From contig NZ_CP045798.1 in NCBI RefSeq assembly GCF_000746025.2, positions 3,145,501 to 3,209,500 of the forward strand: a DNA stretch of 64,000 bases. The letters run 5' to 3'. The notes under the pieces are model-generated. The model was not told the DNA's origin. It made no database searches and was given only the letters and a program-made list of their open reading frames with translations. The stretch is from Thermanaerosceptrum fracticalcis. Lineage in GTDB: Bacteria > Bacillota > Peptococcia > DRI-13. Both the position numbers and the translations under genes were made by a program. Positions within the stretch are counted from its first letter, which is position 1; every line of letters starts with the position of its first letter. This document shows positions 2,946 to 30,434 of the stretch, piece by piece.

Positions 2946-4523
2946 TTAACAATTTTCATTATAACAATAATCAGGCAGATTCTCGGACCAAGGCATTAAG
3001 TTCTCCAGAAGCGAAGGACAATTCTTGAAGTCAAGAGCTGGCATTGTGCTGAAGATATGTACCAGATATTTAAAAATATTGAGTTTGTTAGCTTTGGCTG
3101 TCTCTACAATGCTGTAAATAACGGCACTGGCTCTGGCTCCTTTGGTTGTGTCGGCAAACAGCCAGGATTTCCTGCCGATTACAAATGGCCTAATTGCGTT
3201 CTCAGCTCGGTTGTTGGACAATTCGATTTGTCCATCTTTAAGAAATACGCCTAGTGAAGCTTTTTGGTTTAAGGAATAAGTTATGGCCTCGGCAAGTTTT
3301 GAGCCTTGGAGAGGGTTCACGGTTTCAAGCCATGACAAGTAAGCCTCAAAGATTGGCCTGGACTGTTCCTGACGCTTAAGTTTCCGTTCTTCCGGAGTAA
3401 GTTCTGTTAAATTCTTTTCTATAGCAAAAAGTTGGTTGCAATATTCAAATCCAACGGCAGCAGTAGAACCTCGGATATCTCCACCCTTAGGCAGCGCCTC
3501 CTGGTACTTGCGCCTTAGATGAGCCCAGCAGCCGCATCTGGTGACATTCTGTACCTTGTCGTATCCGCTGTAACCATCGGTCTGCAGATAGCCGCTGAAT
3601 CCCTGCAGGAAGCGACGGGCGTGTTCTCCGGAACGTGTTGGCTGGTATTCAAAAAGTATTATCGGTGGATTTCCAGTATTGCCCGAACAATACACCCACA
3701 TCCGCGAATCGGACGATGGTTTTTTCCCTTCTTCCTTAAGTACCTGAATCACACTTTCGTCCGCATGAATTACAGCCTCTTTAAGAAGACGAGATTTCAT
3801 CCTTTCCCAAAGGGGTTCGAGCCAGTCAGTTGCTGCCCGGATGATCCAATTAGCCAATGTCGCTCTGGATAAAACGATACCTTGATTAGCCCAGTCTTTT
3901 TCCTGACGGTACAGAGGCATGGCATTTACATACTTCTGATACATGGCGTAAGCTACTGACGAGGGGGAAGCAAGACTCTTCTTAATGACTGGAGCGGGAA
4001 CAGGTGCTTTTATAATCGTAGCTTCTCCTGTCTCCTTCTCGCAGCTTGCACAGACATAGTTCTCACGAACATAGCGCAGGAGTCTCGTCTGGGCCGGTAT
4101 GAACTCCAATTCCTCCCGTACAGTTTCTTTGCCGAGGATTCTCATTTTCCCGCCGCATTCCCCGCAGACACGCTTTTCTTCATCCAGCTCACAGAGAATT
4201 TCGGTCACAGGAACATTGGCTGCCAGCTCTTCTTTGGTCCGTTTGTTTTTGCGAACATGCCCGGAAACAGTAATTGTTTTAGGCTCTGGTGCGTTGCGGT
4301 CAGCCTCGGCCTCAGCTTCGTTGAAAAGAGAAGGCTGGTTTTCATCTTGGCCAAGGACATATTTTCTCTTTTCACTGGATTGCCCATACATGGCCTTTTG
4401 AAAGTTGGCAAGTATATTCGTAAGCCGATCTACATGCACTTTCAGGTCTTGCACTTGCGTTTCCAGGGATGTTATGTATGCAGTTACCTCAGGCGCTAGG
4501 CCCGTTAAATCAAATGTTCTCAT
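2946..4523 (-). CDS. tnpC: IS66 transposase TnpC
   Basis: The 525-residue DDE transposase of the IS66 element. The N-terminal 60 residues form a leucine-rich coiled coil. A zinc-binding part follows, with Cys pairs in LCELDEEKRVCGECGG and YVCASCEKE (residues about 110-165). Catalytic acidic positions are visible in HADESVIQV, LQTDGYSGYDKV and NNRAENAIRPFVIGRKSWL. Length and domain order match full-size family members. It is the last gene of the tnpA-tnpB-tnpC set, about 100 bases downstream of tnpB. Confidence 0.95.
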   Translation of the reverse strand: MRTFDLTGLAPEVTAYITSLETQVQDLKVHVDRLTNILANFQKAMYGQSSEKRKYVLGQDENQPSLFNEAEAEADRNAPEPKTITVSGHVRKNKRTKEELAANVPVTEILCELDEEKRVCGECGGKMRILGKETVREELEFIPAQTRLLRYVRENYVCASCEKETGEATIIKAPVPAPVIKKSLASPSSVAYAMYQKYVNAMPLYRQEKDWANQGIVLSRATLANWIIRAATDWLEPLWERMKSRLLKEAVIHADESVIQVLKEEGKKPSSDSRMWVYCSGNTGNPPIILFEYQPTRSGEHARRFLQGFSGYLQTDGYSGYDKVQNVTRCGCWAHLRRKYQEALPKGGDIRGSTAAVGFEYCNQLFAIEKNLTELTPEERKLKRQEQSRPIFEAYLSWLETVNPLQGSKLAEAITYSLNQKASLGVFLKDGQIELSNNRAENAIRPFVIGRKSWLFADTTKGARASAVIYSIVETAKANKLNIFKYLVHIFSTMPALDFKNCPSLLENLMPWSENLPDYCYNENC

Positions 4524-19780: not shown

Positions 19781-20030
19781 AAATCTCTCCTCCAGGTTAT
19801 GAAAAGATTTAGTTGGTGTTAAAGTTCGCCGCGATTCTGTAAATTCCTCTCTGGAAGTAACAAAAGTATATCGCTGGATAATAAATCATATTGTGTTCTA
19901 CGACAAGGGGGTAAAACAAGAATACAATTAAGGGAAAATACATACCAAAAACGACAAAATATGTCATTTTTTCCCAAGGATAATTACAGGAATATGTAGA
20001 ATAATCATTTTAAATTTGGGTAATTGCGGA

Positions 20031-20146
20031 AAGAATAGGGACGGTTCTCGTGACACGATTTTGCTGTTTTGAGCAAAGGTAGAAGGTGTGAGAGATTATG
20101 CCCAGGAGACCAAGAACATACAGTGAAAGCAAAGTATATCACATTA
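20031..20146 (+). repeat. 5' end of a REP-transposase unit, first copy
   Basis: These 116 bases, starting AAGAATAGGGACGGTTCT and running into the transposase N-terminus, recur almost identically at 24174-24289. The GGGACGGTTCT at 20038-20048 has its reverse complement AGAACCGTCCC at 22511-22521, so the pair borders the transposase unit on both sides. The rest of the 19781-20097 gap shows no gene. Confidence 0.85.
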
Positions 20147-20371
20147 TGACCAGAGGAAACGAAAAGAAGAATTTGTTTTATGACAGAGAGGATAGAGAGA
20201 AGTTTCTCAATATTATCATGAGGAAGAAAACAGAAGAGGCTTTCTGTTTATATGCTTATTGCCTTATGGATAACCATATTCATCTTCTGATAAGAGAGAA
20301 TTTGGATAGTATTTCTACCATAATGAAAAAGTTAAACACGGCTTACGCAATTTATTTTAATAAAAACCACC

Positions 20372-20623
20372 CATGCCTAGAAGGCACAACCAATTATGAA
20401 AATATGTAGAAGTGATTACAATGGTCTAATTTTCTGCTACATTGGAATTATCAGGGACAAAGGTTGATTGTATTTTGATGGTATAACCTCGACTAAAAAC
20501 CTAACCTGATTGCCTTTGAGCACGGCCAATTGTCGCCCCTTGTTTTTAAGGACTTGGGAACAGCACGGGTACTAAACTCCATATTTTCTCGGGCAATCAT
20601 CCCTGAAATCCATTGGAGCAGGA
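20372..20623 (+). ncRNA. Candidate bridge RNA region of the IS110 element
   Basis: This is the only long non-coding part of the IS110 copy. It starts with a small hairpin (TGCCT with AGGCA, 20374-20386), holds no frame, and precedes the transposase. In characterised IS110-group elements (IS621) this position encodes the RNA that pairs with target and donor. The assignment is by position only; no internal loops were matched to the flanks. Confidence 0.35.
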
Positions 20624-20632
20624 GTGAGTCGT

Positions 20633-21870
20633 ATGCAAGACATTCTGGAAATTTGTTGTGGTCTTGATGTCCACAAGGAAACTGTTGTCGCCTGCTTATT
20701 AAAAGGCAATGTTGACGGGGAACCAGTTAAAACCATCCGCACTTTTTCCACCCTTCTTGCTGGACTTGATGAACTAAAAGCCTGGCTGGAAGAGGAAAAC
20801 TGCCGGAATGTGGCTATGGAAAGTACTGGTGTTTATTGGCAGCCTGTATATAACGTACTGGAAGAAGCCTTTGACGGCAGTATGGTTTTGATTGTTACCA
20901 ACGCCCGGCACATGAAGAATGTTCCTGGCAAAAAGACCGACATGAAGGACGCTGAATGGATAGCCACTCTCTTGCGTGCCGGATTGTTAGAAGGAAGTTT
21001 TATCCCCTCGAAACCTATCCGGGAACTCCGTAATCTGACCCGGTACCGTAAAAGCATCGTCGAGGAAATTACTTCCCAGAAAAATCGGATTGAAAAGCAC
21101 TTACAAAGCTGCGGCTTTAAGCTGTCAACATTTCTCACCGATATATTCGGCGTATCAGGCCGAGCAATTATAGATCACCTTTGCTGCTACGGGAAGATAT
21201 CTGCCCGCGAAGTAGAAACATTTGTAAAGGGGCGCGCTAAGAGCAAGCTCCATGAGATCAAACAGGCTGTCAATGGTAAAATGGATGTTCACCAAAGGGA
21301 GTTCCTCAAGCTTTTGCTAGGGTGGCTGGATCAGCACTACGAGCATCTTCACCAGGTAGAGCAAAAGCTTGAGGAAAAACTCAAGCAATATCAAAGACAA
21401 CTGGAGCAACTGGACGGCATCCCGGGGATTGACAAAACCGCCGCTGCTGCAATCTTGGCGGAAATCGGCATTGATATGAGCCGATTCAAAACCGCGGAAC
21501 ATATCTGTTCCTGGGCGGGCTTAAGTCCTGGTAATAATGAAAGTGCAGGAAAAAAAAGTCCACCCGTACCACCCATGGCAACACCTATCTAAAACGAATC
21601 CTTTGCGAAATTGCCTGGTGCATCACCCGAATACGCGATAGCTATTTATCGTCTTGGTACTGGAAGATAAAACAACGCCGCGGGGCCAAGAAAGCTCTCA
21701 TTGCATTAGCCAGAAAGCTCCTCGTGATCATTTACAACTTATTGAAGAAAGATGTTGACTACGACGAGACATCCTTTGAAAAAGCTAAACAAAAACAGGA
21801 AAAATTCCGTGTAAAAAGAATTATTGCCGAAGCTAAAAAACTCGGTCTGGAGGTGAGAGAAGTCCAGTAA
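20633..21870 (+). pseudogene. IS110 transposase with a frameshift in an A8 run
   Basis: The N-terminal RuvC-like domain is complete, with acidic residues in CCGLDVHKETV, VAMESTGVYW and KTDMKDAEW. The C-terminal domain begins normally (LDGIPGIDKTAAAAILAEIG, then CSWAGLSPGNNESAGKK with the candidate catalytic Ser). At 21551-21558 an A8 run shifts the frame, which stops 15 codons later. Shifting by one base restores STRTTHGNTYLKRILCEIAW and reading continues to the stop at 21868. Either one A was lost, or slippage on A8 makes some full-length protein. The start used is ATG 20633, behind GGAGCAGGAG. Confidence 0.85.
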
Positions 21871-22533
21871 GCTGTCTAACAGTTATATCCTCCAGAAGGA
21901 TTAATCCGTCAGATGCATGAACTTGCATCTGCTAGTTCGTTATTGTCTTTTTTGCCTTACAAGCATATTGATTATTTGATAGGGTTATTTTCGTACTAAA
22001 TACAGACGGGTGGGCCACGTATTTCAAGACAGGTACAAGAGTGAGACAGTTTTGAATGATAGCTACCTATATTAAATCTTGTTAGGTATATTCATAATAA
22101 TCCAGTTAAGGCTGGTATAGTACCAACCGCTGCCTGTTATCAATAGAGCAGTTATTCCTCATATATTAACGACGGTAGCGAATCTCTCATTAACAAGAAT
22201 GAAGTACTAGAACTTTTTTCTCCGAATCCCACAAAAGCTCTACAGGTATTTATCGATTTTCATGAACAGGCCGACAGTAACAAGTATTTAGATATAGAGC
22301 AGGAAAATACTACGCTTGACGAGGAAGACATTAAATCAACTATAAATAGATATCTTAAAGAACGTGGAATTGAGGAAGCAAACTTAATAGATGGTACCCT
22401 TAGAAAAGAGCTAATAAAATATCTTAGTTATGAGAAAGGGTTATCAATCGTAAGGTTGCGGATATTCTTGGAATTAATAGAGGAGTAGTACAGAGAACCC
22501 TCGTATCAACAGAACCGTCCCTACGACACAAAA

Positions 22534-23169
22534 ATGATGGTCCGTAACCCGGCAGAAGCTAAACGGGACGCGGCTACCCGCGAGAAACATTTGGAAAAAT
22601 TGACCCAGGAACTGGCTAAACTGAAAGACCTAAACGGTGAGGCCCATACCAAGGCCCATTGCCGACTTTACAGCCACCAAGTCTACAAACGCTACCTAAA
22701 GATGGATAAGCACGGTAACCTGAAAATTGATCGTCAGGCAGTAAAAGAAGCAGAGCGACTGGACGGGAAATATTTGATCCGTACCTCTGACGATACCCTT
22801 TCTGCAGAAGACATTGCACTAGGATACAAACAGCTTATGGATGTTGAAGCCGCGTTCCGAACCCTGAAAACGACGTTAGACCTTCGTCCTGTCTACCACC
22901 GCAAGGATGAACGCATTAAAGCTCATGTCCTTCTCTGCTGGTTAGCCCTGTTGTTAGTCCGTCTGGCTGAAGTGGAAACTAAACAGACCTGGCGAAGCCT
23001 GCGGATGGAGTTAGAAAAAATGCATCTGATTGAATACGAATCGGTAGACGGACGGGTATGGCAAAGGACTGAAACAACCGAGGAACAGGACGGTATTTTT
23101 TCAGCTCTCAAAATTGATGAACCCCCGAGAATATGGCACATTGCCCCTCGAACGACTAAAAAATTGTAG
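22534..23169 (+). pseudogene. IS1634-like transposase, C-terminal fragment
   Basis: A 211-codon open fragment matching the C-terminal third of IS1634-type DDE transposases: YLIRTSDDTLSAEDIALGYKQLMDVEAAFRTLKTTLDLRPVYH, with the last catalytic Glu probably in VEAAFRTLK, then KAHVLLCWLALLLVRLAE. The N-terminal two thirds and the start are missing, cut at the boundary with the REP-transposase debris. Not functional. Confidence 0.85.
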
Positions 23170-23229
23170 ACATACGCGAAGTTATCCACAAGTGTTTCAA
23201 AGCCTTGACCCGCCTGGGATGGCGGGGAT

Positions 23230-23523
23230 TTTTGTGCCTACGCATTGTCGAAAGCGAGATAAAGATTCCGGTATAGCAGCTTTGCTGGAATCCGTATTGA
23301 ACCAGATTTTGCAGGCACAAGCCACCGAACAACTGCAAGCCGAGCCGTACGAACGTACTGCTGAAAGAAAAGGATACCGTAATGGCTCATATCCTCATCA
23401 ACTAACCACCCGGGAAGGAACCATTACCCTGCGTGTGCCGCGTTTTCGCAATGGCCAGTTTTCTACCGAAATGTTTGCCCGGTATCAACGCAGCGAGCAA
23501 GCTCTGGTGTTAGCCCTAATGGA
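23230..23523 (+). pseudogene. IS256 (mutator-type) transposase, N-terminal fragment
   Basis: About 95 codons with the IS256 N-terminal pattern: LLESVLNQILQAQATEQL, EPYERTAERKGYRNGSYP, LRVPRFRNGQFSTEMFARYQRSEQALVLALMEP. After about 23523 the similarity ends abruptly and unrelated sequence follows (a short frame with DEYLQWQKEQKQS, not recognised). The catalytic domain is absent. Confidence 0.85.
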
Positions 23524-23654
23524 GCCGGTAAAAAATATCTTGATATGGATGAGTACTTACAGTGGCAGAAAGAGCAAAAACAAAGCTTTAACAAAAACAA
23601 TATCGTTACCCTTGAACACTGCTTAATGACCAATTCCAGCTAAGCCAGGTGACT

Positions 23655-23696
23655 GTCAAGGGTCCACAAAGCGGAGGCTTAGCCTTTACCCTTGAC
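23655..23696. repeat. Palindromic repeat, copy 1
   Basis: GTCAAGGGT and ACCCTTGAC enclose a GC-rich centre. Read on the minus strand, it aligns with the plus-strand palindrome inside 27151-27274 (shared GTCAAGGG, GGCTAA, GCCT, GCTT blocks). It is probably a short non-autonomous element or an IS end. No gene is visible from 23524 to 23876 otherwise. Confidence 0.5.
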
Positions 23697-23830
23697 TGGC
23701 AACTGGCGTGCTGGACAATCTATGCGGCGGTGTTCAGGTTACTCTAACTGAGGAATTTTACACATAATTTTGGACTTGATCAAAAAAAAGAGAATAACCA
23801 TTTTTACTTGTACATCATAGTATATTTTAA

Positions 23831-23845
23831 GACCACCGGGTGGTC
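23831..23845. promoter_or_regulatory. Palindromic operator-like site
   Basis: GACCACC-G-GGTGGTC is a perfect 7+7 inverted repeat 32 bases before the start of the small Cys-rich gene, in an otherwise AT-rich region. Its position suggests an operator. The binding protein is unknown. Confidence 0.5.
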
Positions 23846-23876
23846 AGGCAATTCATTATGAAAGGAGGAATTCAAA

Positions 23877-24041
23877 GTGGGATGTGATAAGGAAAAGAAA
23901 TGCAATTGCTGCATAGAAATTGAAGACAGTATTGTTGTGATTGTTTGTGGTGAAATCGAAATCGACAAGTTCAGAGATTGCATAAATACAGTTTTAGAAG
24001 TAAAAGATAAAAAGAATTTTGGTTATTCGCCAAAAGCGTAG
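23877..24041 (+). CDS. Small Cys-rich protein, function unknown
   Basis: A 54-residue frame starting with GTG behind a strong AAAGGAGG ribosome site. It begins MGCDKEKKCNCCIEIED, with four Cys in the first 13 residues, then has a short hydrophobic strand (SIVVIVCGEIEI) and a helix with one more Cys. A palindrome lies upstream and a terminator-like hairpin downstream, so it looks like a complete small transcription unit. A metal- or thiol-related role is possible but only inferred from the Cys content. Confidence 0.6.
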   Translation: MGCDKEKKCNCCIEIEDSIVVIVCGEIEIDKFRDCINTVLEVKDKKNFGYSPKA

Positions 24042-24097
24042 ATATTCTCATATCCGCTCATTATAAATCTGCTCAAGAATAAAGGATTTGCCTACAT

Positions 24098-24145
24098 CCC
24101 TGTGGTGCTGCACATATAAACATGCAGTATTCACAGGGCATTTTT
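24098..24145 (+). terminator. Terminator-like hairpin after the Cys-rich gene
   Basis: CCCTGTG (24098-24104) pairs with CACAGGG (24132-24138), enclosing a second small stem (TGCA), followed by CATTTTTAT. Confidence 0.55.
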
Positions 24146-24173
24146 ATACCCTCGCTCCTGTTCAGAAAGAAGA

Positions 24174-24289
24174 AAGAATAGGGACGGTTCTCGTGACACG
24201 ATTTTGCTGTTTTGAGCAAAGGTATAGGGGGTGAGAGGTTATGCCCAGGAGACCAAGAACATACAGTGAAAGTAAAGTATATCACATTA
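24174..24289 (+). repeat. 5' end of a REP-transposase unit, truncated second copy
   Basis: Near-identical to 20031-20146. It contains GGGACGGTTCT, the ribosome site and the first 17 codons of the same transposase, then breaks off after CACATTA, where attC-like sequence begins. The junction marks the left edge of the cassette array. Confidence 0.88.
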
Positions 24290-24324
24290 CTAATCCGCGC
24301 CCTTGCGGGAGCGCAGTGTTAGTC
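24290..24324 (+). repeat. attC-like site A, truncated
   Basis: Only the right end remains. Its first 22 bases (starting CTAATCCGCGCCC) are identical to the right end of site B, and it ends with the core GTTAGTC (24318-24324). The rest was replaced by the REP-unit fragment. GTTAGTCGA opens the vapBC cassette; its near-complement TCGACTGAC is at 25073-25081. Confidence 0.65.
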
Positions 24325-24358
24325 GATCGTGGTGGTGTCTTCATTACGTTTACTTTAT

Positions 24359-24401
24359 TTGACAATAAGAGTATTTAGGTATATACTATGATATATACCT
24401 A
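24359..24401 (+). promoter_or_regulatory. vapBC promoter with overlapping operator
   Basis: TTGACA (24359-24364), a 17-base spacer and TATACT (24382-24387). A perfect inverted repeat, TAGGTATATA-N6-TATATACCTA (24376-24401), covers the -10, as expected for autorepression by the VapB-VapC complex. The cassette therefore carries its own promoter. Confidence 0.85.
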
Positions 24402-24417
24402 GTTAGAGGTGATTACT

Positions 24418-24645
24418 TTGGATATTGCAAAAATCTTCTTTAACGGAAGAAGTCAGGCTGTTAGATTACCCAAAGAATATCGGCTAGAAGGTTCCGAAGT
24501 TTATGTCAAGAAAATTGATGATGTCGTACTTTTGATTCCCAAAGACAGCGCCTGGAAAACACTTGAATCTAGCTTAAACTACTTTTCCGATGATTTTATG
24601 GCTGAAAGAAACCAACCCGAGATTGAGAAACGAGAAGGCTTGTAA
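24418..24645 (+). CDS. vapB: VapB-type antitoxin (AbrB/MazE fold)
   Basis: A 75-residue DNA-binding antitoxin that neutralises the VapC RNase and, with it, represses the operon. The N-terminal swapped-hairpin domain reads MDIAKIFFNGRSQAVRLPKEYRL; the C-terminal tail (about residues 45-75) should bind the toxin. The start is taken as TTG 24418, 6 bases after AGAGGTG, because family members begin at this residue; GTG 24409 lies inside the ribosome site. It lies 2 bases before vapC, the usual antitoxin-first order. Confidence 0.9.
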   Translation: MDIAKIFFNGRSQAVRLPKEYRLEGSEVYVKKIDDVVLLIPKDSAWKTLESSLNYFSDDFMAERNQPEIEKREGL

Positions 24646-24647
24646 CT

Positions 24648-25049
24648 ATGAGATACATGCTTGATACCAATATCTGCATCTACATCATCAAGAAGAAACC
24701 AGTTCAGGTCTTCCAAATATTCAATGCTCTTAAAGTTGGCGACGTATGTATCTCCTCAATTACTCTAGCAGAACTACAATACGGTGTTTATAAAAGTCAG
24801 TTTCCGGAGCGAAACAAACTCGCCCTGGTAAATTTCCTAGCACCAATCACCATTCTTCCTTTTTCTGACCGAGCTTCAGTTTTGTATGGCCATATCCGAG
24901 CTGGTCTTGAAAAACGAGGTCAAATTATCGGTGCATACGATCTAATGATTGCAGCTCACGCACTTTCTGAGGACTTAATCCTGGTTACAAATAACACTAA
25001 AGAATTCAGCAGAATACCAAATCTGCCCCTTAAAAACTGGGCTGAGTAA
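24648..25049 (+). CDS. vapC: VapC-type PIN-domain toxin
   Basis: A 133-residue PIN-domain RNase; in this family the usual targets are tRNA or rRNA. Acidic residues of the active site appear in MLDTNICIYIIKKKP (Asp6), ITLAELQYGVYKS (Glu near 43) and GAYDLMIAAHAL (Asp near 100), with the final TNNTKEFSRIPNL segment. The gene directly follows vapB. With its promoter and operator it makes a complete stabilisation or defence module inside an integron-like cassette. Confidence 0.93.
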   Translation: MRYMLDTNICIYIIKKKPVQVFQIFNALKVGDVCISSITLAELQYGVYKSQFPERNKLALVNFLAPITILPFSDRASVLYGHIRAGLEKRGQIIGAYDLMIAAHALSEDLILVTNNTKEFSRIPNLPLKNWAE

Positions 25050-25074
25050 TCAGTCCTTTTTTTGCCACCATGTC

Positions 25075-25276
25075 GACTGACGAAGTCGTGTTCCCGACGT
25101 CACCCGGCCTTAAGACGATGGCTGAGCTTTAGAGTTGCTTGCAACTCTTAGCGAAGGTGAGCCGAGTCCGCCGGTCTTGGGCTCAGGGGATGTGGCGCGG
25201 CACGCTCCAGCCTCACCCAAAATCAAGCTCCCGCAGCCCTGCTAATCCGCGCCCTTGCGGGAGTATAGTGTTAGAC
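25075..25276 (+). repeat. attC-like site B
   Basis: It runs from GACTGAC (25075), the near-complement of the start of the vapBC cassette, to the core GTTAGAC (25270-25276). About 200 bases long with many internal inverted segments. It shares blocks with site C: CGATG-C-GAG, CGAGTCC-GCCGGTCTTGGGC, TGTGGC and AAAATC, in the same order. The size is larger than typical attC but within the range of Vibrio-type repeats plus insertions. Confidence 0.65.
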
Positions 25277-25287
25277 GCAGTACCGGT

Positions 25288-25980
25288 TTATTCAATCTTA
25301 TCGTGTTTCGCTAAATTATGTCTTGCGCACAGAAGTTGAATGTTTTCGGCAACCAATGACGATCCACCCTTTGAATAAGGAATAATATGATCAAAATGAA
25401 GATTCTCTGAACTGCCACAAATGACACACTTTCCTTTATCTCTTTTCCAAACTGCTAACTTTACCTCTGAAGGAATTATTCTCCCGTGTTCCAACTCATC
25501 ATCCTGTTTTTTCTCTGGTATTAGCTCGTTCACCAGTTCTAATCTAAATTTAAACACTTTTCGTGCATTACTTTCTTCAAGCCAGGCATCGACCAATTTG
25601 AATATACCATTGTATACCCAAATCCCGTCTCTTAACTTCTCATATACCTTCACTCTTTCAGCAGGTTGTATTCCTCTCTTGTACTTTTGGGCAGCTTCAA
25701 AAAATTTGCCGTTTTCAGTAAGGGATCCACTTGGAGTAAACATCTCTTGGTCAACTTTCTTTGGATTAGGTCCATCTTTTCTGTTTGGTATATCATGACC
25801 CTCATAAATTAATATTTTTCCATTTTCCTCAATTCTATCTGCATACGGTGCCCCTGGCCTTACACTCATGAGAATTATTGATGTTTTACCTCTCAACCTG
25901 AAATTCATACCTCTTTGAAGGTTAATCCCTTCCTCCATACTCATCTCAAGATATGAAATAATATCACCAGGTCTTGGCAT
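25288..25980 (-). CDS. SRA-HNH endonuclease, modification-dependent (type IV restriction-like)
   Basis: A 230-residue protein. The N-terminal two thirds resemble an SRA/YDG base-flipping domain (LRGKTSIILMSVRPGAPYADRI followed by GKILIYEGHDIP, residues about 29-68), which reads modified cytosine. The C-terminus is an HNH nuclease: Cys185/Cys188 pair, HFDH at 195-198, C218xxH221 and N222. Fused SRA-HNH proteins cut DNA bearing 5-methyl- or 5-hydroxymethylcytosine. The gene runs opposite to vapBC within its own cassette (GTTAGACGCA at 25270, TGCGTCTAAC at 26007). GGAGG precedes the ATG. The activity is inferred from family. Confidence 0.85.
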   Translation of the reverse strand: MPRPGDIISYLEMSMEEGINLQRGMNFRLRGKTSIILMSVRPGAPYADRIEENGKILIYEGHDIPNRKDGPNPKKVDQEMFTPSGSLTENGKFFEAAQKYKRGIQPAERVKVYEKLRDGIWVYNGIFKLVDAWLEESNARKVFKFRLELVNELIPEKKQDDELEHGRIIPSEVKLAVWKRDKGKCVICGSSENLHFDHIIPYSKGGSSLVAENIQLLCARHNLAKHDKIE

Positions 25981-26009
25981 GGATTTAACCTCCTAATTAT
26001 AGGTATTGC

Positions 26010-26171
26010 GTCTAACGGTCCCGGCTTTACGACGCCCTTGCGCCCTAAGGCGATGACCGAGTCCTGCCGGTCTTGGGCGCAAGGGTGTGGCACGCACTCT
26101 TCAGCCCCGCTCAAAATCCAACCCGCGTTGAACCCGCTTACCGCGCCCGATGCGTGAAGCCATTGTTAGCC
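26010..26171 (+). repeat. attC-like site C
   Basis: A 162-base element from GTCTAAC (26010-26016) to GTTAGCC (26165-26171). Its left end is the exact reverse complement of the start of the SRA-HNH cassette over 10 bases. It is GC-rich and palindrome-rich, with CGCCCTTGCGCC repeated in inverted form as GGGCGCAAGGG, and homologous in its middle to site B. Confidence 0.75.
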
Positions 26172-26186
26172 GAAGTACAGATTAAT

Positions 26187-26800
26187 CTAAAGTTTAGATA
26201 CAGATATATGAATCCATTGTTTCTCCATTTCTTTTGCTAATACAACTCCTGCTTCTTTTTCCAAATTTTCGTTAAAAGGAATATATATTAGACCTTGTAT
26301 ATCTGAAGGACGTTCCATTTTACTAGGGTTTTTAATTAGTATTGCCACTTTTGCCCTTCCTAGTTTTGATAGTAACATTCCCAACTCCAACACTACGTTT
26401 TGCCTTGCACGATATGTCTTTTCATCGGGGTGATTTGCCCTATGCCCTTCATCGTCTGGTGTTGCTAAAACAACTGCAAAATTTACTTTCCCTGTATAAT
26501 TTTCAAGTTTTTCTATAATTGTCTAACCTTCTGAAGGCAACTGATCAAGTATTAAAGGTTCTATTTCCCATCTCCTAAGCATGATTCTTTTACCATAGTG
26601 TGACTTGTTCGAATCTCTAGAATAGCTTCAATTTCGCTTTTATTCTTACCTTGAACATTATAAGTTCCCTTATCATAACAGTTAATTACATTTCAGTTAG
26701 TAAGTCTTATCTGATCTCCTGTGTCATTTCCAAGTCTTCTAATCTCTTCGATCTCATAATCTGATGCAACTAATCTTTCAATAATTTCCTCTTTTTTCAT
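26187..26800 (-). pseudogene. Decayed TIR-domain (CAP12/Pycsar-type) nucleotide-binding protein
   Basis: The start ATG (26798-26800) has a strong AAGGAGG site. The N-terminal part reads MKKEEIIERLVASDYEIEEI and then, past a TGA, NVQGKNKSEIEAILEI, as in predicted nucleotide-binding TIR proteins. The TIR part is clear: TIIEKLENYTGKVNFAVVLA, TPDDEGHRANHPDEKTYRA, RQNVVLELGMLLSKLGRAKV and IQGLIYIPF. There are an in-frame TGA near 26695, a TAG near 26523 and a frame change between them, so no full protein is made. Related proteins deplete NAD+ in antiphage systems. Only the last 68 codons are open from an ATG. Confidence 0.85.
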
Positions 26801-26831
26801 CTTTAAACCTCCTTCAGTGGATCCGTATTTC

Positions 26832-26975
26832 GGCTAACGTATCATAGGCTAGGCGAATTCGCGATAGCTGGCGCGATTTTTCCTACACCTTTTACACCTT
26901 TCAATCTATTAGCAAAAATCGTGACAGCCGCGAGTTGGGTGGAGCGTAGCGAAACTGCTTAGCAGGGTGTTAGAC
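26832..26975 (+). repeat. attC-like site D
   Basis: A 144-base element from GGCTAAC (26832-26838) to GTTAGAC (26969-26975). GCTGGCGCGATTTTT pairs with AAAAATCGTGACAGC with a few unpaired bases, giving a long stem as in attC sites. The left end with its flank (GTATTTCGGCTAAC, 26825-26838) complements the start of the TIR cassette (26165-26178) at 13 of 14 positions. Confidence 0.8.
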
Positions 26976-27150
26976 GATGTGGGCCTTTGTCCATTTATGT
27001 CCGTCGTAAATGGTGCGAATTCTCTTGGTAAGACCTCGGGCTGACCCCCTAAAATTGGAGAATAGCTACTTGATTCTTTCTCACTAACAGTAAGGCTATA
27101 ATCTTCTACCAAATGGTAAATAATGCCATACAATACTTTTAAAACGGCTG

Positions 27151-27274
27151 CCTATCCAACCTCACCCAATTTTAGCCGCCTTCCTTATGTTGTCAAGGGC
27201 AAGGGCTAAAGCCTGCTTCGCACCCTTGACACCAATTGCGGAAGCCTGCTTTTTCGTTGCTAAGGTTGGCTAGG
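27151..27274. repeat. MITE-like element inside the IS3 copy
   Basis: CCTATCCAACCT (27151-27162) and AGGTTGGCTAGG (27263-27274) are inverted repeats matching at 11 of 12 bases. They enclose a second palindrome, TGTCAAGGG (27191-27199) with CCCTTGACA (27223-27231), of the same family as 23655-23696. There is no coding capacity. Confidence 0.6.
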
Positions 27275-27286
27275 AGGATAACAGTA

Positions 27287-28253
27287 TTAGGCGATAAGAG
27301 GTTGTACTGACCCTGTGAATTGCCCTTTTGTAAAGGCCTTGTAAAACTCATTAGGAGCCATATACTTTATACCGCTATGTCTACGCCTATTGTTGTAGTA
27401 ATCAATATATTCACTAATAGTCCGATATACTTCCATAAAGCTGTCAAATTCATGGCGACTGTAGCATTCATCCTCTAGGATAGAGTGGAATGACTCTATA
27501 TAGGCATTCATATTAGGTGTTTTGACAGGAATTCTTTCATGCTCGATATTCCATTTATCACAAGTTTCCTTAAACAGTTTAGCAATGAATTGGGGCCCAT
27601 TGTCCGTTCTTATCACCGGCATTTTCACACCGGGAGTTAAGTTGCGTTTTTTAAGGGCATTTATAAGTACCCTGCAGGCATCCTTTGCTGTGGCGCTTAA
27701 TCCTACATGGTAACCTACTATTGATCTATCAAATACATCTATGGCTGAAAGTTGGAAGAAAAATTGACCGGTCCCGGCAATATAGCCATATTTTATATCC
27801 ATTTGCCAGAGCTGGTTAGGACCTGTTATTTTTTCTCGCTTAGCAAGCTTCTTAGGACGCTTGGGATATATTTTTCGTTGAGGACGTAAAATATCAAGTT
27901 CTTTGCAAAGCCGGTAAACTTTCTTATGGTTGATTATCAACTTATAATCTTCTTTCAAACAAATGCCAAGCTTTTTGTATCCATAGGGAAAACCATCGCG
28001 GTTATAAGCTCACAAAGTTATTCTTTGATAAGTTCATCCGGTATCTTTTCTCCCTTTTTGTTCAGTGAATAGCCTGGTATTTTACGTCCCGTCTGCTTTT
28101 TTGTTAATGCTTGTTCCTCTCTGCTTTCTTTTGTGATGTTGTAGTAATAGGTGGATGCAGCCAGACCGACAGAGTTGAGAACAGTAGTTGTATTGTATCC
28201 CTTTTCAATCCACCTCTTAGCAATGGCAACTCTGCCGGTTACCGAGGGTTTTT
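27287..28253 (-). pseudogene. IS3 transposase OrfB, interrupted
   Basis: The rve integrase core is intact in the last 223 codons: WQMDIKYGYIAGTGQFFFQL, then VIRTDNGPQF, and YIESFHSILEDE with the catalytic Glu. The N-terminal part lies in another frame and stops at a TAA near 28020, just before DGFPYGYKKLG; one stop and one frame change separate the halves. Without repair the protein lacks its helix-turn-helix half. The orfA-orfB junction is arranged for -1 frameshifting as in other IS3 members. Confidence 0.85.
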
Positions 28254-28550
28254 ACAATCCATCAAATCCTTTAGAATTGCCAATTGTAATTCTTTCTCGG
28301 CAAGAAGACGTTTTAGTCTATCATTTTCTGTACTTACTTCTTTAAGCTGTTTTTCCATGGCTTTGTACCGTTCTTCTTTTGCTTTGGGCAGAGGTTTTAC
28401 CGAACCTCTTTGGCGTTGTTTTTTCAGCCAGGTATGGATAGTAGTTGTTGCTATCTCATGCCTTCGGGCCACTAAGGCTACATTGCCTGTCTCCTGACAT
28501 TCTTTTAGAATTTGCTCTTTAAATTCATGACTGTACTGATTTTTTGTCAC
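28239..28550 (-). CDS. IS3 transposase OrfA
   Basis: A 103-residue protein: an N-terminal helix-turn-helix of the Tnp_8 type (YSHEFKEQILKECQETGN, then HEIATTTIHTWLKKQ) followed by a leucine-zipper coiled coil (about residues 60-95, LKEVSTENDRLKRLLAEKE). It binds the IS ends and normally fuses to OrfB by frameshifting. Open and full length, although its partner is broken. Confidence 0.88.
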   Translation of the reverse strand: MTKNQYSHEFKEQILKECQETGNVALVARRHEIATTTIHTWLKKQRQRGSVKPLPKAKEERYKAMEKQLKEVSTENDRLKRLLAEKELQLAILKDLMDCKNPR

Positions 28551-28636
28551 TCTTATTACCCCCTACTTAAATACTAACATATAAGTGCATTTTCTCCAAA
28601 AGTTCTAGGGGGCTAAATAGCAACCTCACCGATGCT

Positions 28637-28805
28637 CTAAGTAGGATTATCCAACCCCGCTGCTGTTTCTTCTAAGCTCGAACAAAACTCATCTTTACCT
28701 ACATTCAAGGCATTGCTTGCTTCCAACTTCTTAGGATCAAATGGGATTTCAACTACTATAGGGCGATCACTATGCACTGCTTTTCCAAATACACCAGGGC
28801 CTGTC
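28637..28805 (-). pseudogene. Gene fragment, unknown
   Basis: An open, codon-like stretch on the minus strand: GPGVFGKAVHSDRPIVVEIP, then FDPKKLEASNALNVGKDEF and a stop at 28637. It has no start and is joined at about 28805 to the recombinase fragment. I do not recognise it. It may be the remains of the cassette gene broken by the IS3 insertion. Confidence 0.4.
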
Positions 28806-28972
28806 TAAGTGTCTTAAATACTGGGTTAATACTTCCAAAGCAACTTAGAGATAACATAGTATATCGATTTTTCCTACCTTTGGCCTGACGGATATGAATC
28901 ATATTTCGAGATTTGTCTATATCCTACAGTTTCAAACGAACCACCTCACCCACACGAAGACCAGAAGAGTAT
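28806..28972 (-). pseudogene. Tyrosine recombinase fragment
   Basis: Reads [15 protein letters not shown], stop, [20 protein letters not shown], then TMLS before the similarity is lost. This is the box I Arg region (GLRVGE) and the KGRKNR strand of XerC/IntI-like recombinases. The His-x-x-Arg and Tyr boxes are missing. Its presence in the cassette array is suggestive, but too little is left to call it an integron integrase. Confidence 0.75.
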
Positions 28973-29071
28973 ATTGAGACATTCTACAATGCCAGACGAC
29001 TGCACAGTGCCCTGGGATATATGTCCCCTATAGAGTTTGAAAGGCATTACAGAAAATCTCTGGCGGCCTAG
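28972..29071 (+). pseudogene. IS3-family OrfB, C-terminal scrap
   Basis: About 32 codons, [20 protein letters not shown] then [13 protein letters not shown] and a stop, the standard C-terminus of an IS3 OrfB of a different subgroup from 27042-28615. No other part of that element is present. The following 200 bases contain an open frame with no recognisable product. Confidence 0.8.
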
Positions 29072-29401
29072 CTTACACAAAGAAAAACTAGTAAAAAGCT
29101 GGGATAGGTCTCTGTCGACCCTATTAATGGAAATATATGGATATAACCTGGGTTATATTCAGAATATTATACTTATTGCCCCAGAAGAGCAAAAGTTAAA
29201 ATACAAAGAATTCCTTTTTTATAAAATAATGAGTAATTCTAAGAAAAGAGGAGAAAAACACCGTTCTGCGTGTCCAGTTTAGTTAGATCACTCCAATTCA
29301 TAAGATAAGACAGCTTGAAATATCGAATAGTGATAAGGAGTTAATTCTCGGTAGAAATCTTCAGGGGTTATTAAACCTATAAGACAACAAGTACGCACTG
29401 T

Positions 29402-29452
29402 GCATAACACTGCGTTCCCGTTTTTGACGTCGGTAATGCACATTCGTTAGCT
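29402..29452 (+). repeat. attC-like site F (short)
   Basis: From GCATAAC (29402-29408) to GTTAGCT (29446-29452), 51 bases. GCGTTCCCG and CGGTAATGC inside can pair at 7 of 9 positions around a TTTTTGACGT loop. This is the size of a minimal attC. Its GTTAGCTGACATACC opens the next cassette. Confidence 0.5.
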
Positions 29453-29558
29453 GACATACCGTGCTTGGGAGAAGATGAAAGCCATAGTGTAAAAACCCAT
29501 CTGCTTGAGATATAATATAAGTAAAGAAAGTAAAGAAAGCATGAACGGGGGCTTAGAC

Positions 29559-29834
29559 ATGGAACTAGCAAGATTGTCTTCAAAGGGCCAGATTACTGTC
29601 CCAATCGAGATAAGGAAGAAACTTAATTTAAAAGAAGGTGACAAAGTTTTGTTCTTTGAAGAAGACGGTAAGATAGTTGTTGCCAACGCTTCGCTTATGG
29701 CATTTAAAGAATTGCAGAGTTCAATGATGGGGGAAGCAGAAAAACAAGGATTTAAATCGGATAATGAAATAAATGAGTATGTGAAAGAGATAAGGAAAGA
29801 GCTCTGGGAGAAGAAATATGAGAATAATGATTGA
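29559..29834 (+). CDS. AbrB/SpoVT-type antitoxin
   Basis: A 91-residue protein. The N-terminal AbrB fold (MELARLSSKGQITVPIEIRKKL, then GDKVLFFEEDGKIVV) binds DNA, and the acidic helical tail should bind the toxin. The ATG at 29559 is preferred because the family begins here; in-frame ATG 29541 is an alternative. A TATAAT-type -10 lies near 29512. The gene overlaps the PIN toxin by 17 bases, so translation is coupled. Confidence 0.87.
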   Translation: MELARLSSKGQITVPIEIRKKLNLKEGDKVLFFEEDGKIVVANASLMAFKELQSSMMGEAEKQGFKSDNEINEYVKEIRKELWEKKYENND

Positions 29835-30216
29835 TACAAATGTACTCATTTCGGCCATCTTGTTTCCAGGTTCTTCTCCTACAATTACCCTACAGAAAGT
29901 TATTGAAAAACATAATCTTGTGTTGTGTTCTCACATAATAGATGAAGTTCATATTGTGTTTGAGAGGAAGTTTCCTGAGAAGATTAAGAACCTTGAGAGA
30001 TTTCTGTCTAAACTATCATATGAGCTGGTTTATACACCATTGGATATAGAAATGAACAAATATCCTCAGATACGGGATAATGGCGACCTTCCGATACTTG
30101 TTTCAGCTATTTTGGCTGACGTAGATATAATCATAACCGGTGATAAAGACTTCCAAAGCATTGAAATTGAAAAACCAATAGTATTAACACCAAGGGAGTT
30201 TCTTAATATTTATTAA
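29818..30216 (+). CDS. PIN-domain toxin (PilT N-terminal / COG1569 type)
   Basis: A 132-residue predicted RNase. Active-site acids are seen in MIDTNVLISAILFPGS (Asp6), HIIDEVHIVFERKFP (Glu near 44) and the pair DNGDLPILVSAILADVDIIITGDKDF (Asp near 90 and 109). It forms a toxin-antitoxin pair with the AbrB-like gene it overlaps. The pair is flanked by GTTAGCTGACATACC (29446) and its near-complement (30251-30265), so it is a second toxin-antitoxin cassette. Confidence 0.9.
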   Translation: MRIMIDTNVLISAILFPGSSPTITLQKVIEKHNLVLCSHIIDEVHIVFERKFPEKIKNLERFLSKLSYELVYTPLDIEMNKYPQIRDNGDLPILVSAILADVDIIITGDKDFQSIEIEKPIVLTPREFLNIY

Positions 30217-30258
30217 TTCCCTTGGTGTATTACTTTAGGGGCATTAAACCGGTACATC

Positions 30259-30434
30259 AGCTAACAATACCTTCCCAAGGGTGCGGTAGAGAATCTCATG
30301 GGGCCGCCACACCCCCGACCCAACCGCGGCGGCGGCCGGCTCGCCCGAACCTAAGATAGGAGTTATCTAAGGTTCGGACTACGCCTTAGGGCCGGGGGAC
30401 GTCGGGGGAAAAGGGATGGTTATTTGTATTAGAT
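30259..30434 (+). repeat. attC-like site E
   Basis: From AGCTAAC (30259-30265) to about GTATTAGAT (30426-30434). CTAACAATACCTTCCC at the left matches the complement of GGGATGGTTATTTGTATTAG at the right with small gaps, and a hairpin CGAACCT-AGATA / TTATCT-AGGTTCG sits inside. GGTACATCAGCTAAC (30251-30265) complements the cassette start at 29446 at 13 of 15 positions. The right core is a variant of GTTAG, with two added bases. Confidence 0.65.

Follow-up and report, generated by a model that had tools for sequence, protein, structure and literature searches.

The window analyzed here, 64,000 nucleotides of the Thermanaerosceptrum fracticalcis genome (bases 3145501-3209500), contains a broken gene for a TIR-domain protein on the minus strand (26800-26187) next to SRA-HNH nuclease and VapBC toxin-antitoxin genes, raising the question of how this gene came to lie there and what destroyed it. 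Our analyses support the interpretation that the gene is the dead cargo of a cassette, and that this cassette belongs to a chromosomal integron in decay in this Bacillota bacterium, with cassette capture followed by drift, a reading to which we assign a probability of roughly 0.83.

The broken gene runs from an ATG at 26800, with GGAGG just 5' of it, to an end at 26187. Both of its parts matched, in order, the 231-position PADLOC model for PDC-S35 (PDLC05006). The N-terminal part (26591-26800, minus strand) matched positions 1-69 (E 7e-13, genome search), and the C-terminal TIR part, which lies in another frame (26187-26585, minus strand), matched positions 101-231 (26190-26585; E 2e-70, 235 bits). 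In a profile search, the C-terminal part also matched PF10137, the CAP12/Pycsar effector TIR domain, with 98.2 bits (E 4e-28) against a curated cut-off of 24.7 bits, with profile positions 1-18 (the first TIR strand) absent and the domain hence incomplete. This part carries both the TPDDEG and the NVVLELG motifs, which a preliminary description of the locus had rightly read as marks of a TIR protein. Its assignment of the gene to a CAP12-type TIR was correct at the level of the PF10137 family but not for Cap12 itself, as the PDC-S35 model fitted far better (235 bits) than the PADLOC models for Cap12-like and generic TIR effectors (60 and 49 bits) or PycTIR (44 bits). The broken gene is a gene for a PDC-S35-type two-domain protein of the PF10137 TIR family.

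Cap12 (the TIR-STING protein of CBASS) and PycTIR (Pycsar) share with the window gene a TIR domain that includes the N-V-V-x-E-x-G glutamate. The glutamate of NVVLELG aligned with NVVFEFG of Cap12, indicating that the glutamate of the alpha-C helix is present, and from our reading of the motif we take it to occupy the same position as SfSTING E84. E84 is catalytic in SfSTING (PMC9402430). Unlike Cap12 and PycTIR, the window gene has a different N-terminal domain, has no STING or cyclic-nucleotide module and adjoins no CD-NTase or cyclase. Profile searches detected neither a STING domain nor a CD-NTase in the gene pieces or the neighboring genes tested, and the neighbors of the gene are SRA-HNH, VapBC and an insertion sequence (IS), with no cyclase among them. 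Judging by its fold, the intact TIR protein may have depleted NAD+, and the gene was probably an anti-phage gene. PDC-S35 is itself only a defense candidate; "PDC" marks a candidate defense family, and PDC-S35 was named in no paper that we found in the open-access literature.

The TIR gene is borne as a cassette, as had been proposed, with complementary, cassette-specific R' and R'' ends and an attC palindrome. The mobilized unit, consisting of R', the gene, R'' and an attC body, occupies 26016-26837 (minus strand). R' reads GTTAGCCGAAATAC (26838, minus strand), R'' (26178-26165) is complementary to GTTAGCCGAAGTAC (26165), and the attC-like site (26009-26171, minus strand; nhmmer E 1.6e-33) belongs to a family of approximately 200 bp and has complementary L'' and L' boxes. 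The preliminary description had treated GTTAGCCGAA as a core that would flank intact homologues in related genomes. The boundary motifs are real, but they constitute the R-box pair of this one cassette and not a general core. Since GTTAGCCGAA is cassette-specific, it may be absent from homologues elsewhere. Among 39 relatives searched, no PF10137 gene was found other than that in the window genome itself, and thus no intact copy of the TIR cassette was found nearby. Viral contigs contained no close relatives of the TIR protein and plasmids no homologues of its N-terminal part, and TIR parts encoded on plasmids reached only 41-53% identity.

With a nucleotide HMM trained on 11 sites, the ~200-bp attC-like sites were found in many genomes of this order, arranged in arrays with spacings of mostly 0.4-3 kb. 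In the window, the HMM matched 25073-25277 (E 8.6e-50), 26009-26171, 30258-30406 (E 1e-18) and a truncated site at 24287-24324. The family was present in 15 of 46 genomes of the class, and its named carriers are Bacillota/Clostridia/Peptococcaceae drafts with one Pseudomonas exception. R' and R'' of the same cassette were complementary at 5.90 of 9 variable positions across 31 cassettes, compared to 4.27 +/- 0.20 after shuffling (maximum of 5.0 among 10,000 shuffles) and 4.57 when R' was taken from the next cassette, and L'' and L' paired at 7.57 of 9 positions within 56 sites, compared to 6.45 +/- 0.11, with both counts slightly inflated by a few sites present in more than one of the loci analyzed. 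Position 11 of the R boxes is a fixed mismatch (3% match), a rule that the TIR cassette also obeys. Genes were codirectional with attC in 22 of 28 cases (22:6), with attC orientation set by gene direction and integrase/attI position. The R'/R'' and L''/L' pairings are marks of integron cassettes. The attC core was absent from viral contigs, and the single Rfam match was a tRNA. The one exact match to the core pattern outside Bacillota, in Pseudomonas sp. R-28-1W-6 (L082, 7961-7988), may reflect chance, transfer or a mixed assembly. At seven sites, the attC R' reads GTTG[AT]ACTAAA[CT]CG (L095:7992, L096:1971, L098:1393, L049:1404, L079:4502, L052:11365 and L076:5644), and in L095, L096 and L098 an IS91-like transposase and a companion integrase follow it, as if R' were an insertion target. 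A short recombinase (280-314 aa) directly 3' of attC, considered as a candidate cassette integrase, proved to be the companion of the IS91-like transposase inserted after R' GTTG.

The array in the window reads from right to left (minus strand), starting at an integrase scrap. This scrap of a XerA/IntI-like integrase (28804-28974, minus strand; ~57 codons) lies on the 5' side of the array and shares 71% identity over 42 aa with the integrase of a relative (G005; TIGR02249, 42 bits). An IS3-type element (27040-28620, minus strand) with rve domains and terminal inverted repeats stands between it and the cassettes. Next to the TIR cassette on its 5' side, an attC-like site with R boxes (26824-26980, minus strand) is the rest of a lost cassette, cassette D; its body is unlike the ~200-bp family, DNA searches of relatives gave no match to it, and it probably came from a foreign cassette. 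Downstream of the TIR cassette are the SRA-HNH nuclease cassette (25081-26015, minus strand; gene 25980-25288, attC 25277-25073, E 8.6e-50), whose gene matched HNH with 38.7 bits and SAD_SRA with 28.1 bits, just under the cut-off for that profile, and the VapBC1 cassette (24290-25080, minus strand), whose genes lie on the plus strand (24409-25049) and whose attC is truncated at 24290. Abutting the truncated attC is a copy (24172-24289, plus strand; 96% direct repeat) of the 118-bp start of the REP-transposase region at 20029-20146. The region left of the array (20013-24288) is rich in IS, with transposase genes and fragments. In the sister genome (G001), the syntenic contig lacks a match to this region, and the attC cut at 24290 continues further left. 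A second, opposite array is represented by a shrunken attC-like site (29398-29455, plus strand), recognized by reading the sequence, and by the VapBC2 cassette (29447-30406, plus strand; genes 29505-29834 and 29818-30216) with its own attC at 30258-30406. The SRA-HNH and VapBC genes have open frames, in line with the earlier view of them as intact. The window genome (G000) contains no full-length integrase of the XerA/IntI-like type, only the scrap at 28804-28974, and no complete integron with an intact integrase and attI.

Full-length counterparts of the scrap do occur in relatives. A XerA/IntI-like integrase of 360-380 aa was found at full length in five genomes of the class and partially in a sixth, and these fall among genomes with the attC family (6 of 15) and not among the others (0 of 31; Fisher p of about 5e-4, uncorrected for shared ancestry). 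In the relatives' integrase, the TIGR02249 match (228 and 217 bits for the whole proteins) breaks into two segments, at about 2-177 and 230-314, and skips about 178-229, the stretch that we take to be the IntI-specific insertion. The protein thus appears to lack this insertion and does not seem to be a classical IntI. In G006, the R' of the first cassette, GTTATATGAAATTT, lies no more than 90 bp 3' of the integrase stop, and the R'' of that cassette is AAACTTCATATAAC; G009 follows the same plan. Strong integrase matches occurred in 16 of 398 genomes of the phylum. GTTANNYGAMA was found no more than 260 bp 3' of the integrase stop in 13 of 20 phylum loci, where 0.13 would be expected by chance, and in 3 of 179 stretches used as controls, and CGAA-type motifs were 4.6-fold denser 3' of the integrase than 5'. 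A contig ended within 1 kb 3' of the integrase in 7 of 19 loci, as expected if repeats follow. The integrase is transcribed in the direction of the cassettes, and its closest plasmid relatives are Bacteroidota site-specific integrases (about 40%).

These integrase loci (G006:C58, G009:C70, G005:C103, G002:C44, G022:C156, G304:C1 and 14 phylum loci, L134-L147), usually followed by the attI-like GTTANNYGAMA, are a probable unrecognized Bacillota integron platform, with an integrase that may act on the attC- and attI-like sites. We lean toward placing them in an integron class of their own, in which a XerA-like integrase of 360-380 aa that lacks the IntI-specific insertion is transcribed toward an attI-like site 65-200 bp 3' of its stop, followed by cassettes with R boxes of ~14 nt (GTTANNYGAMAT) whose position 11 shows a fixed A/G offset. 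The window would then be a dead remnant of this class, and its TIR, SRA-HNH and VapBC cassettes would attest to traffic in defense and toxin-antitoxin genes.

The interpretation of the repeats as attC sites has a competitor, namely that they belong to another family, REP-like or a transposon end, that merely separates genes. No IntI above the TIGR02249 cut-off (265 bits) was found in the window genome or in any genome of the order, the R boxes follow GTTRRRY only loosely, and IS91-like elements are present at some sites, all in keeping with such a family. This possibility nevertheless appears improbable given the cassette-specific R pairing and the within-site L pairing, intervals that mostly hold one gene or operon, the restriction of the integrase to genomes with the sites and the attI-like sites 3' of the integrase.

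If the repeats delimit cassettes, a further question is whether the TIR gene was lost by selection or along with its surroundings. The preliminary description had taken the loss of only this toxic effector to suggest that it was counterselected, or that the phage pressure maintaining it had ceased, while its neighbors were kept. The observation favoring this proposal is that the frame of the TIR gene is broken and those of SRA-HNH and the two VapBC pairs are open. However, the TIR gene is not the only loss at the locus. The integrase was reduced to a scrap, cassette D was destroyed beside the IS3-type element, a third cassette is represented by only a shrunken attC, and the left end of the array was cut by the REP-transposase copy. 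Comparison of two genomes of the genus, one of them (G001) an 80% complete draft, revealed a syntenic locus that shares VapBC1 (99% identity), the integrase scrap (98.5%) and VapBC2 (99%). In this locus, ~390 bp replace SRA-HNH, TIR, cassette D and the IS3-type element, and these contain the start of another cassette, which we presume to be DUF4160-like. An intact SRA-HNH is therefore absent together with TIR from the sister locus. A TAG in the integrase scrap of the window genome is GAG in the sister genome, indicating that part of the decay is recent, this stop having arisen in an already dead sequence. Survivors of the array include the two toxin-antitoxin cassettes, which are of a type expected to persist. 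With a dead integrase, a destroyed cassette and several IS, no special force on TIR is needed, and one pseudogene by itself does not allow selection to be told from drift. Selective loss of the TIR effector is thus unlikely, and general erosion with survival of toxin-antitoxin cassettes better explains the pattern. The sister locus also contains a hybrid attC (G001:C164 near 4130-4323; L099) that is 99% identical to the SRA-HNH cassette site but differs from it in the R/L ends, as would result if the intervening cassettes had been lost by homologous recombination between attC bodies.

The two stops described previously for the TIR gene (at about 26690 and at 26523) were confirmed as an in-frame TGA in the N-terminal part (26695-26693, minus strand) and an in-frame TAG in the C-terminal part (26525-26523, minus strand). 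The accompanying frame change is also present but is the trace of a larger event. The two PDLC05006 matches are separated by 5 nt of DNA (26586-26590, minus strand), although 31 codons (positions 70-100) lie between them in the model. This junction was confirmed by comparison with the nearest intact relative found (G076, 250 aa), relative to which ~49 residues are missing. An out-of-frame deletion of about 90-140 nt between the TGA and the TAG has thus removed the linker and the first TIR strand; this deletion and the two stops distinguish the window gene from PDC-S35, which it otherwise matches in both parts. As judged from these lesions, the gene is truly dead, since with the linker and first TIR strand deleted neither a sequencing error nor stop readthrough would give a working protein. 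Stops and frame changes are typical errors, but an error of sequencing or assembly in an intact gene is very improbable for two stops plus a deletion of this size in a genome assembled as one contig (3.8 Mb). Equally remote is a functional protein from the remaining open stretch (68-111 codons of TIR) or from a recoded reading. NVVLELG and TPDDEG are kept and an ORF from GTG 26393 exists, but the lost strand and linker and the shifted frame mean that reading TGA and TAG as sense restores no domain.

Considering these results together, we propose the following history for the cassette. The intact gene would have encoded a PDC-S35 protein with a short N-terminal domain and a CAP12/Pycsar-type TIR domain, which most likely, to judge by its fold, killed or arrested infected cells through NAD+ cleavage on sensing infection. 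The anatomy of the cassette suggests that it entered the array as a circle, through tyrosine recombination of its own R boxes with an attI or attC site. With the integrase now a scrap, renewal of the array from within is no longer possible. The TIR gene would have drifted, acquiring the out-of-frame deletion and two stops, and the rest of the array would be eroding through insertion sequences and deletions, with the two toxin-antitoxin cassettes surviving.

A dead TIR gene is ordinary in itself, and the point of interest is its integron setting. Integrons are reportedly exceedingly rare in Firmicutes, and why this is so is unclear; a few CALINs and one complete integron, that of Limnochorda pilosa, are on record (PMC9024848). 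Defense genes are known from integrons of Vibrio and Xanthomonas and from mobile integrons (PMC12444791 and works it cites). The window array resembles the chromosomal integrons and CALINs with defense cassettes of Vibrio and Xanthomonas (PMC12444791) in its gene cassettes, palindromic attC with R/L boxes and defense genes, but its host belongs to Bacillota, its attC family is of ~200 bp, its R boxes (~14 nt) have a fixed mismatch and it lacks a classical IntI. Treponema-type integrons (PMC3607928) similarly have an integrase transcribed toward attI, in cassette direction, but theirs is reported as IntI, whereas the integrase described here is without the IntI-specific insertion. In the open-access literature, with subscription papers and preprints outside our scope, we found no description of Bacillota integrons without IntI or of such an integrase with attC arrays. 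If our interpretation is correct, tools that rely on the IntI insertion would overlook Bacillota integrons, which would help explain their reported rarity in Firmicutes. With a phylum-wide set of attC, attI and integrase, a second natural type of enzyme for shuffling attC-like sites would become available, along with a new pool of defense and toxin-antitoxin cassettes.

Regarding cassette content elsewhere, other cassettes of the attC family encode Fic/Doc, PemK and D12-type adenine methylase, and the product of the first cassette after attI in G006 (L090:513-1538), a protein of 341 aa, matched nucleoside deoxyribosyltransferase weakly (20.5 bits, below the cut-off).
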